Shown here piece after piece: positions 15,285-61,975 of a DNA stretch of 64,000 nucleotides (positions are counted from its first letter, which is position 1; each line of letters begins with the position of its first letter). The notes beneath the pieces were generated by a model. That model worked only from the letters and a program-made list of their open reading frames with translations. It was not told the DNA's origin and ran no database searches. This DNA is from Verrucomicrobiales bacterium (GTDB taxonomy: Bacteria; Verrucomicrobiota; Verrucomicrobiia; Limisphaerales; UBA11358): NCBI GenBank assembly GCA_028712475.1, contig JAQTQB010000001.1, forward strand, positions 186,001-250,000. The letters run 5' to 3'. Position numbers and translations under genes: made by a program.

Positions 15285-15382
15285 AACAACCAACATCGAA
15301 CAACCAACATTCAACATCCAATGCCGCTTGCGCGCGTTACAATGGATGTTGGGTGTTCGATGTTGGTTGTTGGATGTTTCCC
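15285..15382. repeat. Inverted heptamer element, second copy
   Basis: The left arm consists of AACAACC, AACATCG, AACAACC, AACATTC and AACATCC (15285-15319). The right arm is GTTGGGT, GTTCGAT, GTTGGTT, GTTGGAT and GTTTCCC (15348-15382). Unit length is exactly seven throughout, although individual units vary. Architecture and the terminal GTTTCCCC box match the element before rnc. It separates the DUF2975 gene from its regulator. Confidence 0.88.
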
Positions 15383-15394
15383 CCAATTTTAATA

Positions 15395-23268: not shown

Positions 23269-24252
23269 ATGAGCAAAACTGCACTCCTGTTTGCCGGTCA
23301 AGGCGCGCAAGTCGTCGGCATGGGCAAAGACCTTGCCGAAAAATTTCCCAGCGCGAAGGCGTGGTTCGACCGCGCAAACGCCGCGCTCGGCTACGACCTT
23401 GCCGGAATCTGTTTCAACGGGCCGGAAGCGGATTTGACGAAAACCGAAAACGCGCAGCCGGGGATTTTTCTCGTGAGCTGGGTCGCGTTTCAATTGCTCA
23501 AGGAACGCGCGCCAAATCTGAAATTCGACGCTACCGCCGGATTGTCGCTCGGTGAATTCACGGCGCTGACGGCGGCGGGCGCGATGAGTTTCGAGGACGG
23601 CCTACGCGTGGTCCGCCAGCGCGGCAAGTTCATGCAGGAGGCGTGCGATGTGACCAAAGGCGGCATGGCCGCGATCATCGGCCTCGACGAAGCGCCGACG
23701 CGCGAAGTCTGCGCGGAAGCTGGCGTCGTGCTGGCAAATCTGAACTGCCCCGGCCAACTCGTCATTTCCGGCGAGGCGGAAAAGATTGCGAAAGCGTGTG
23801 AACTAGCGAAGGCCAAGGGCGCAAAGCGGGCGTTGCCGTTGCCGGTGGCCGGCGCGTATCACTCGCCGCTCATGGCCAGCGCGCAGCCGAAGCTCGGCGC
23901 GGAACTGGCAAAAACAAAAATTTCTGCGCCGACGGTTCCTGTCATTTCAAATGTCACCGCGCAACCGCACGGTTGTAGTGTTGACGCTGTGCGTCAACCA
24001 TCGGCTCACAGAGCCGACGCTACAAATCCAGCAGCGGAAATTTCTGCCAAGCTCGTTGAGCAGGTTTGCGCGTCGGTGCTGTGGGAACAATCCATGCGCC
24101 ATCTGCTGGCGCAAGGATTCACGCGGTTCATCGAACTCGGGCCGGGCACGGCCTTGAGCGGCTTCATGAAGCGAATTGACAAAACGGCAACGATGCTAAA
24201 CGTCGCGGACGCGGCGAGCTTGGAGACAACGGTGAAGGCGTTGGCGATATAG
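23269..24252 (+). CDS. fabD: Malonyl-CoA:ACP transacylase
   Basis: FabD loads malonyl groups on acyl carrier protein for fatty-acid elongation. LLFAGQGAQVVGMGKDL is the N-terminal motif and TAGLSLGEFTALTAAGA contains the catalytic serine; the histidine lies in PVAGAYHSPLM. The start is the ATG at 23269, not upstream codons made of repeat DNA. Residues about 235-252, after PVISNVTAQPHG, are encoded by a palindromic repeat element (23973-24025) and make the protein longer than the usual 310 residues. The catalytic core is intact, so activity is expected. It heads the fabD-fabG-acpP-fabF cluster. Confidence 0.96.
   Translation: MSKTALLFAGQGAQVVGMGKDLAEKFPSAKAWFDRANAALGYDLAGICFNGPEADLTKTENAQPGIFLVSWVAFQLLKERAPNLKFDATAGLSLGEFTALTAAGAMSFEDGLRVVRQRGKFMQEACDVTKGGMAAIIGLDEAPTREVCAEAGVVLANLNCPGQLVISGEAEKIAKACELAKAKGAKRALPLPVAGAYHSPLMASAQPKLGAELAKTKISAPTVPVISNVTAQPHGCSVDAVRQPSAHRADATNPAAEISAKLVEQVCASVLWEQSMRHLLAQGFTRFIELGPGTALSGFMKRIDKTATMLNVADAASLETTVKALAI
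23973..24025. repeat. TTGTAG-bounded double-hairpin element inside fabD
   Basis: The element opens with TTGTAG and closes with CTACAA. Inside are two hairpins: TTGACGC-TGT-GCGTCAA and TCGGCTC-ACA-GAGCCGA. It is translated in frame in fabD. A second copy with the same plan lies inside bioD (48777-48833). Confidence 0.85.
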
Positions 24253-48420: not shown

Positions 48421-49152
48421 ATGAAGCAAACGCTTTTCATCACCGGCACGGACACCGGCGTCGGCAAAACCGTGCTGACCGCGCTGCTGACGCGCTTCCT
48501 GCGCGAACGCGGCGTCAATGCGGCGGCGCTCAAACCCGTCTGCTCCGGCGGTCGCGCCGACGCCCGCGCGCTGCACGCCGCCATGGACGGCACGCTCACG
48601 CTCGACGAAATCAATCCGTGGCATTTCCGCGCGCCCATCGCGCCCTTGCTCGCCGCGCGCCGGGAAAAGCGGAGCGTGAAACTGTCGCAAGCCCTCGCGC
48701 ACGTCCGCACGATGCAAAGGCGTTTTGACGTTGTGCTGGTGGAAGGCGCGGGCGGCCTGTTGAGTCCATTGGGCGTTTGTAGCGGCGGTCTGCGACCGTC
48801 GCAATCTTCGGCGCTCACAGAGCGCCGCTACAAAGAAAGTTTCGATTCGCGCGATTTGATTACCGCCCTGCGCGCGACGCCCATCATCGTCGCGCCGAAC
48901 AAGCTGGGCGTGGTGAATCAAATCTTGCTGACGCTCGAAGCCCTGCCGCCCGCTGCGGCAAAGCAGGCGCGCGTCGTTTTGATGTCGCCGCCCAAGCCGG
49001 GTGCGGCATCGAAAACCAATCTGAATCTGCTGGCGGAATTTTTGAACGCGAACCGGATTTTTTCATTGCCGTGGCTGGGAAAAAGATTCGACGCGACAGA
49101 GGCTTTGAAAAATCCACGCGTTAAGCGGACGTTGAAAGGCTTGATAGATTAA
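48421..49152 (+). CDS. bioD: Dethiobiotin synthetase
   Basis: Catalyses ATP-dependent ring closure in biotin synthesis. The P-loop is FITGTDTGVGKTVLTALL and KPVCSGG and VLVEGAGGLLSPLG are family motifs. Residues about 119-138 (VCSGGLRPSQSSALTERRYK) come from a TTGTAG-bounded palindromic element. They replace the short loop normally found before SFDSRDLI. The rest aligns well, so the enzyme may still be active. No other bio genes are present. Confidence 0.93.
   Translation: MKQTLFITGTDTGVGKTVLTALLTRFLRERGVNAAALKPVCSGGRADARALHAAMDGTLTLDEINPWHFRAPIAPLLAARREKRSVKLSQALAHVRTMQRRFDVVLVEGAGGLLSPLGVCSGGLRPSQSSALTERRYKESFDSRDLITALRATPIIVAPNKLGVVNQILLTLEALPPAAAKQARVVLMSPPKPGAASKTNLNLLAEFLNANRIFSLPWLGKRFDATEALKNPRVKRTLKGLID
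48777..48833. repeat. TTGTAG-bounded double-hairpin element inside bioD
   Basis: It opens TTGTAGCGGCGGTC, has a GGTC-TGC-GACC hairpin and a GGCGCTC-ACA-GAGCGCC hairpin, and closes CTACAA. The plan is the same as in fabD at 23973-24025. At 57 bases it is a multiple of three. Confidence 0.86.
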
Positions 49153-59963: not shown

Positions 59964-61241
59964 GTGAGCATTCTCGAAGAATTACAATGGCGTGGCCTCG
60001 TCGCTGACTGCACCGACACGGCGGAACTGACCAAAAAAATTTCCGCGCCCGTCACGCTTTACTGCGGCTTCGATCCGACGGCGGACAGCCTGCATGTCGG
60101 CAATCTCGTGCCGCTGCTTGCGCTGCGCCGCTTTCAATTGCTCGGTCATCATCCCATCGCCGTCGCGGGCGGCGCGACCGGCAGCATCGGCGATCCGAGC
60201 GGCAAGACCGCCGAGCGGCAGCTCCTCACGCCGGAAATCCTCGACCACAACATCGCCAGCGTGAAAGTGCAGCTTGCGAAGCTGCTCGATTTTGAGACGA
60301 AACAAAATCCCGCGCGCCTCGTGGACAACGCCTCGTGGACGAAGGGAATCTCGTTCCTCGATTTTCTCCGCGACATCGGAAAGCATTTTTCCGTCAACCA
60401 GATGGTCGCCAAGGAATCCGTCCGCGCCCGCATGGAAGACCGCGAAGTCGGCATCAGCTACACCGAATTCAGCTACATGCTCCTGCAGGCGTTTGATTTC
60501 ATGGTGCTGTGCCGCGACTCGAACTGCGAACTGCAAATTGGCGGCAGCGACCAGTGGGGCAACATCACCGCCGGGATTGATCTGACGCGCAAGAAACTCG
60601 GCAAACACGTCTTTGGCCTGACGCTCCCGCTCATCACCAACGCCGACGGGACGAAATTTGGAAAGACTGAAGCAGGCGCCATCTGGCTCGATCCGAAGCG
60701 CACGAGCGTCTATAAGTTTTACCAGTTCTGGATCAACACAGACGACCGCGATGTCATCCGTTACCTGAAATATTTCACGTTCCTGTCGAAGGAAGAAATT
60801 GAGTCGCTGGAAAAGCAGCACGCAGAAAATCCCGGCGCACGCATCGCGCACAAGGCGCTGGCGAAAGCGGCAACGGATTTGATCCACGGCCCCGGTGCCA
60901 CTGCGGAAGCAGTCCGCGCCAGCGAAATTCTTTTTGGCGGCGAACTCAAAGGCATTTCCGAAACCACCTTCAACGACATCGTTGGCGAAGTGCCGACGAA
61001 GGAGATTGAACTGGCGAAACTGGACGGTGTCGGTTTTTCGCTGATTGAACTGCTGGTTCAAGCTAGCTTGTGTCCGTCCAAAGGCCAGGCGCGGAAAGAC
61101 CTTGAAGGCGGCGGCGTGAACGTGAACAACGTCCGTGAAGCGAATCTCCAGCGCATGGTCGTCACCAGCGACTTGCTCTTCGGCAAACACCTCCTGCTCC
61201 GCAAAGGCAAAAAGAATTACGTCGTAGTCACGGCGAAGTAG
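59964..61241 (+). CDS. tyrS: Tyrosyl-tRNA synthetase
   Basis: A class I synthetase. The HIGH-like motif is ADSLHVGNLVPLLAL, SDQWGNITAGIDL follows the tyrosine pocket, the KMSKS equivalent is KFGKTEAGA, and a C-terminal S4 domain (CPSKGQARKDLEGGGVNVNN) completes it. It starts at a GTG at 59964; a methionine 14 codons upstream gives no similarity. Its stop codon is the beginning of a GTAGCAGCCGACGTGAG repeat. Confidence 0.96.
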   Translation: MSILEELQWRGLVADCTDTAELTKKISAPVTLYCGFDPTADSLHVGNLVPLLALRRFQLLGHHPIAVAGGATGSIGDPSGKTAERQLLTPEILDHNIASVKVQLAKLLDFETKQNPARLVDNASWTKGISFLDFLRDIGKHFSVNQMVAKESVRARMEDREVGISYTEFSYMLLQAFDFMVLCRDSNCELQIGGSDQWGNITAGIDLTRKKLGKHVFGLTLPLITNADGTKFGKTEAGAIWLDPKRTSVYKFYQFWINTDDRDVIRYLKYFTFLSKEEIESLEKQHAENPGARIAHKALAKAATDLIHGPGATAEAVRASEILFGGELKGISETTFNDIVGEVPTKEIELAKLDGVGFSLIELLVQASLCPSKGQARKDLEGGGVNVNNVREANLQRMVVTSDLLFGKHLLLRKGKKNYVVVTAK

Positions 61242-61261
61242 CAGCCGACGTGAGTTGGCTC
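61238..61261 (+). repeat. GTAGCAGCCGACGTGAG repeat at the tyrS stop
   Basis: GTAGCAGCCGACGTGAGTTG then GCTC begins one base before and includes the TAG stop of tyrS. Related copies lie at 61430-61453 and, reversed, at 61484-61507. Confidence 0.8.
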
Positions 61262-61290
61262 AAACTTCCGCCGCTGACATGATTCAGAAT

Positions 61291-61317
61291 GGCGGCGCTC
61301 TGCCGAGACGCCGCTAC
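61291..61317. repeat. GGCGGCGCTC hairpin, relative of the TTGTAG element
   Basis: GGCGGCGCTCTGCCGAGACG then CCGCTAC resembles the right half of the palindromes inside fabD and bioD. Confidence 0.55.
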
Positions 61318-61337
61318 GCCAGCAGCGCCTCCGCTTG

Positions 61338-61380
61338 CTTCTCCCTCGCCCCTCCGAGGGGAGAGGGCCGGGGTGAGGGG
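61338..61380. repeat. CTCCCTCGCCCCTCC hairpin
   Basis: A TCCCTCGCCCCTC / GAGGGGAGAGGG hairpin ending GGCCGGGGTGAGGGG, of the same family as the 43114 and 49158 elements. Confidence 0.72.
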
Positions 61381-61429
61381 TAAGGCAAGAACTGGATTAA
61401 CCGCGAACCGCGCGAAAAGCAAATCGGAC

Positions 61430-61507
61430 GTAGCAGCCGACGTAAGGAGGCTCCAACTAATTTCCCCACGCCGGATTTAGAATGAGCCTCCTCACGTCGG
61501 CTGCTAC
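61430..61507. repeat. Inverted pair of GTAGCAGCCGACGT repeats
   Basis: A 24-base arm (GTAGCAGCCGACGTAAGGAG then GCTC) at 61430-61453 faces its near-perfect inverse at 61484-61507 across a 30-base spacer. The right arm abuts the stop codon of the decayed protease gene. Confidence 0.82.
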
Positions 61508-61975
61508 TCAGTAAACCAAGACCAGCACCGCCGCCGCTTGCGCCGACTGCACCACGTCCTCAAACTTCCGTTCCGCGCTGACGGGGTCTTTGAGTTTATT
61601 CGCCACGTCGGGGACCGACTCCAGGAAGCTCAATAGAAAACTGCTCTTCACCGCGTAGTTCACATTCTCCGGCAACGCCCCGCTCGCGGCCAGCGCCGCC
61701 ACCGCATGGTGGCCGTGCGCCAGCACCTTGGCCGACACCACGCCCACCACGTTGCCATGCTCATCCACCAGCGGACGATGCTCGTCCTGCCATCTGCCCG
61801 GCTTCATGGTGGCCGTCCGCAAGGACTCATCCGCCGCGCCGGAGAGCGACGCGATTTCGCCCCGCGCAAACTTCGGCGCGAACCCTTGCAGGCCGGTGTT
61901 GGGAAAACCCACCGTCGCCACCGCGCCGCCCAGCTTCAGCGTGCGACTCGCCGCCACCGGCAATGGTGTTGGTGA
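61508..61975 (-). pseudogene. Degenerate C-terminal half of a trypsin-like protease
   Basis: Read on the minus strand, LKLGGAVATVGFPNTGLQGF, VDEHGNVVGVVSAKV and ALPENVNYAVKSSFLLSFLE match the C-terminal part of verrucomicrobial S1-type proteases. Where the active serine segment PGNSGGPLVDE is expected the sequence reads PGRWQDEHRPLVDE, so the serine is lost. The N-terminal half with histidine and aspartate is absent; the frame continues upstream only into unrelated sequence antisense to the kelch gene. It is very probably a pseudogene. Confidence 0.72.

Follow-up and report, generated by a model that had tools for sequence, protein, structure and literature searches.

An in-frame inverted GTAG-REP dimer in the fabD gene of a Verrucomicrobiales bacterium and related dimers elsewhere in its genome

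How might a palindromic element come to lie, in frame, within a fatty-acid gene that is normally essential? The window, a 64-kb stretch of DNA (64,000 nucleotides) from an uncultured Verrucomicrobiales bacterium whose genome is here called G000, carries on its plus strand the fabD gene (23269..24252; 327 codons and a stop), which encodes malonyl-CoA:ACP transacylase and matches the curated model TIGR00128 with 307 bits against a cut-off of 261. A sequence-only reading of the window had placed in this gene, at 23973-24025, a 53-base double hairpin running from TTGTAG to CTACAA that leaves the frame unbroken, and our analysis confirmed both the element and its exact position. The element (TTGTAGTGTTGACGCTGTGCGTCAACCATCGGCTCACAGAGCCGACGCTACAA), which has no strand of its own and touches FabD residues 235-253, can be parsed as TTGTAG T GTTGACGC-TGT-GCGTCAAC CA TCGGCTC-ACA-GAGCCGA CG CTACAA. 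Its left REP (23975..23998, plus strand) consists of a GTAG head, a T and a perfect 8-bp stem, GTTGACGC/GCGTCAAC, with the loop TGT; its right REP (24001..24023, read on the minus strand) consists of a GTAG head, CG and a 7-bp stem, TCGGCTC/GAGCCGA, again with the loop TGT. In both halves a short hairpin stands with the GTAG head at its 5′ foot, and the two opposed hairpins form an inverted pair (a BIME) that can close as one three-way fold. As single-stranded DNA, the element folds at -19.3 kcal/mol, against a mean of -7.9 for shuffled sequences (z = -5.2), and none of 200 shuffles was equally stable. A frame in which the dimer head becomes TTG-TAG is closed on both strands; in the frame used, the translated open reading frame gives CSVDAVRQPSAHRADAT for the insert, and the peptides predicted from the insert-bearing FabD include QPSAHR and ADATNPAAEISAK. 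With 18 occurrences in the window, the motif TTGTAG is more frequent than expected (7.5).

The sequence-only reading had proposed that close relatives be searched for an empty site, and this comparison gave a uniform result. We looked for FabD in 39 relatives and obtained 25 homologues that were readable at the insertion site, with protein identities of up to 92%; in all 25 of these nearest readable genes the site was empty and the gene was a net 54 nt shorter. For example, one relative reads CAC GGA ACG CCG GCG GAA where G000 reads CAC GGT, 18 codons and then CCA GCA GCG GAA. Among 80 named fabD loci, mostly from metagenome-assembled genomes (MAGs) of Verrucomicrobia subdivision 3 / Limisphaerales, 59 could be parsed, and the element was absent from every one. 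Because the site is empty throughout the relatives compared, the fabD insertion is, on these alignments, derived in the source genome. As regards a possible MITE-type duplication of the target site, the net gain slightly exceeds the length of the element both here (+54 nt for 53 nt) and in a second gene of the window, bioD (+60 for 57), an excess of 1-3 nt at junctions that are blurred by the divergence of the relatives. Since neither half of the fabD dimer has an identical copy among the 41 dimers described below, this copy is not a fresh transposition.

Does the gene that carries the insert still serve the cell? Only one fabD match was found in G000, and the insert-bearing gene is therefore presumably the working copy. 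Residues S93, R118, H198 and Q265, which correspond by analogy to the known active-site positions of E. coli FabD, are invariant in an alignment of 36 rows. In an AlphaFold model built with 36 sequences (mean pLDDT 88.1), the only stretch below 50 is residues 237-251, that is, the insert, which forms the loop preceding helix 254-265. The insert is thus predicted by this model to occupy a disordered strand-to-helix loop of an otherwise confident fold, in agreement with the earlier placement of the element in a loop of the enzyme.

The window contains a second such dimer, which the earlier reading had overlooked. The bioD gene (48421..49152, plus strand; dethiobiotin synthetase, TIGR00347, 123.5 bits against a cut-off of 83.3) carries at 48777..48833 an in-frame REP dimer of the GCGGCGGTC subfamily, likewise without a strand of its own, with the same architecture as the fabD element and exactly 60 nt extra in comparison with relatives. 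The tblastn pieces of the relatives' bioD lie directly next to each other in the relative's own DNA, the junction corresponding to query residues 117/138, and the alignment agrees.

Further related dimers are present across the 3.4-Mb source genome. Using a covariance model trained on 11 dimer copies, some of them intragenic, we found at least 41 distinct related dimers, a lower bound from scoring the best 150 candidates at E <= 0.1. A plain inverted-pair pattern matched 22 times, against three for a reversed control pattern, and a strict, narrow pattern for the element gave no matches. Most halves of the 41 dimers have the GTAG head. The stems have changed in a compensatory manner among the copies: 23 cells were altered on both sides, against 7.6 in shuffled and at most three in slid controls, and in the two inner helices five and four of the seven pairs, respectively, show double-sided changes. 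As in the GTAG-REP family, most of the dimers (28 of 41) fall outside the genes that have a family match, and at some of them, such as L052, L057 and L079, the upstream gene takes its stop codon from the TAG of the head.

The other 13 dimers are in frame within an addA-like helicase gene, leuS (two dimers), fabD, ogg, pcrA, a tdh-like dehydrogenase gene, recN, mfd, lpd, bioD, prmA and moeA, the last at the C-terminal end of the gene. A further in-frame element, in proA, has two adjoining heads and brings the total for genes with a family match in the source genome to at least 14 elements, spread over 13 genes; none is read in the frame in which the head gives a TAG stop. The recN and leuS inserts are missing in most relatives; related inserts occur at the same recN site in the relative G013 and at the same leuS site in G023, and these are either older inserts or reused sites. 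Inspection of 53 dimers in relatives gave five in-frame cases, in leuS (two genomes), dus, a citrate-type transporter gene and tilS. The intragenic share is therefore 13 of 41 here and 5 of 53 in relatives (Fisher p ~0.01), a post hoc comparison made with a model trained partly on intragenic copies. Many open reading frames over other dimers (for example, L012 and L069) were discounted for lack of a family match, and two C-terminal fragments of threonyl-tRNA synthetase genes (L067 and L068) were excluded as likely remnants. These fragments, at G000:C9:117729 and C9:120473, lie 2.7 kb apart and carry the same REP dimer, which seems to have been duplicated along with its target. A comparison of leuS of G000 (C27:191562-194468) with that of relatives (L187-L213) marks the stretch between YWM and GVDLYVGG, a loop of leucyl-tRNA synthetase, as a hot spot for insertions in the genus, with REP dimers in two genomes and, in about eight others, peptides that look like products of short tandem repeats.

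What could have moved such dimers? On a contig other than that of fabD, the source genome encodes a RAYT (REP-associated tyrosine transposase; G000:C17:64925-65422; curated model NF047646, 90.8 bits against a cut-off of 80), and dimers of the fabD-element family lie on both sides of this gene. Its orthologue in G011 (80% identical) has the same REP, TGTAGCGTCGAGCCTGTGGCTCGAC, on both sides, whereas in G014 and G024, whose RAYTs are more distant (47 and 43%), the gene is bordered by GTAGCGGCGGTCTGTGACCGCCG, the bioD-type REP. Because the flanking REPs differ in this manner with RAYT relatedness, the REP subfamily, and with it the stem sequence, tracks the RAYT clade, as far as these sequences indicate. 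Across 24 relatives, there was no clean relation between dimer number and the presence of a RAYT: G002 and G016 have dimers and no RAYT of the C17 clade, G011 has the RAYT and no dimer above the threshold, and dimer number is therefore not simply RAYT-dependent. Other candidate partners were rejected, namely a RAYT-like gene at C17:159118, which is flanked by GGTAGGGCGG hairpins of a third family, and the PF01797 matches L001-L004 and L005-L006, which are accompanied by no repeats or by repeats outside the fabD-element family. In G004 (C119:11469-12064; L144, L159), several REPs belonging to the RAYT's own family break the RAYT reading frame.

These features invite comparison with known systems. 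Like the REPINs and BIMEs of Escherichia and Pseudomonas, with their RAYT (TnpA-REP), the present system combines a GTAG-type head and a hairpin, inverted pairs and a single-domain Y1 transposase gene with cognate flanking REPs. To our knowledge, the REPINs and BIMEs of those genera are nearly always extragenic; in contrast, about one-third of the dimers detected here are inside genes with a family match. Opitutus terrae and some other species are already known to have in-frame intragenic GTAG REPs, which are most abundant in O. terrae, itself a verrucomicrobium (Di Nocera et al. 2013, BMC Genomics 14:522, PMC3733652). The element in fabD therefore adds to a kind that was already on record for another verrucomicrobium. 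The resemblance extends to GTAG palindromes, in-frame inverted dimers (encoding 20-30 residues in those species), genes hit twice, DNA-repair and tRNA synthetase genes as targets, REP-end TAGs that are often the stop codon of the neighbouring gene, and RAYTs flanked by REPs (PMC3733652). The present system differs in its stem sequences and in its host, whose relatives are Verrucomicrobia subdivision 3 / Limisphaerales MAGs, and it adds to the O. terrae system by presenting together the empty sites, the flanked RAYT and the predicted loop of a host protein.

We consider it very probable that the fabD element is a non-autonomous GTAG-REP dimer (BIME/REPIN) whose cognate RAYT lies elsewhere in the genome. 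A RAYT-dependent event, which we infer to have involved the C17 RAYT, would have placed a dimer copy in fabD after the split from close relatives. The dimer would then have survived because it is open in frames other than that of the TTG-TAG head, because the net change of 54 nt is a multiple of three, and because the strand-to-helix loop would tolerate about 18 extra residues. The insert peptide would be translated and retained in the enzyme, and the insertion is likely to be neutral or nearly so. At recN (net +14 codons) and at the second leuS site (net +12), some target codons were replaced, and this replacement of a few codons counts against clean transposition.

The sequence-only reading had likened the element to the Rickettsia palindromic elements (RPEs), which would make it a selfish coding repeat, spread without a RAYT by way of a harmless peptide. 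As regards behaviour, the likeness holds: both are palindromic and enter unrelated protein genes in frame, here fabD, bioD and 11 others, normally essential ones included, and the peptide types VASSLRLD.SAHSADT and CSVEPVA recur among the inserts. As regards identity, it fails. As judged from the tag, the sequences differ: both halves of the fabD element carry GTAG and not CGTC, whereas the intragenic RPE-4 and RPE-6 are CGTC repeats without a dedicated transposase (Di Nocera et al., PMC3733652). Moreover, the use of two different frames implies that no single peptide was selected, and the 28 copies outside genes with a family match also speak against this origin, which we regard as improbable. 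Because the element consists of two GTAG-tagged REPs in inverted orientation and the genome contains a RAYT flanked by the same pair, its proper kin, as judged from sequence, is the REP/BIME/REPIN family.

Could the insert instead have been kept for a function, for example as a ribosome-pausing mRNA hairpin in fabD or as a peptide that alters FabD activity? The strong hairpins have remained intact inside genes, the recN site is occupied by a related insert in G013 as well, and the leuS loop contains REP or repeat-like inserts in many relatives; however, the fabD insert is unique to the source genome, the predicted order of its loop is low, and the unrelated sequences in the same leuS loop of relatives suggest tolerance, not function. 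Retention for a function is thus a very improbable account. An error of assembly or binning might be suspected in a draft genome of 29 contigs with an estimated contamination of 1.8%, but the site is internal to a 698-kb contig, this architecture recurs in frame 14 times, in 13 genes, and the bioD insert measures exactly 60 nt against many relatives, which makes an artefact hardly credible.

The fabD locus offers a clean example, with its polarity set by the many relatives that have an empty site, of a REP dimer turned coding in a single-copy, normally essential enzyme, with a probable transposase gene in the same genome. The further in-frame copies, at least 13 in number, offer a useful natural experiment for learning which loops of a protein can take up some 18 additional residues, and they bear on whether REPs, named as extragenic elements, also give rise to new protein sequence. 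DNA-repair genes account for five of the 13 hit genes (mfd, pcrA, recN, the addA-like gene and ogg), with a chance of about 3 in 10,000 if repair genes are assumed to make up 5% of coding targets, gene length and dispensability being uncorrected. A bias of intragenic GTAG REPs towards DNA-repair genes has been reported independently for other species (Di Nocera et al. 2013, PMC3733652). That REP dimers gather in repair genes, by an insertion preference or by selection for a slight in-frame disturbance of repair, is a rather doubtful proposal at present; if the tendency holds under a controlled test, it would call for explanation.

Other repeats were observed in and around these loci. One relative's FabD (L286:1501-2490) has, in another loop, a different in-frame insert of 21 residues, an inverted heptamer-type repeat (AGTCCAAAGTC...GGACTTTGGACT). 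Long inverted repeats of AACATTCAAC-like heptamer units at 2540-2637 and 15285-15383 of the window resemble this hairpin-forming class of insert, and the GTAGCAGCCGACGTGAGGAGGCTC inverted repeats at 61237-61508 of the window represent another GTAG-headed family.
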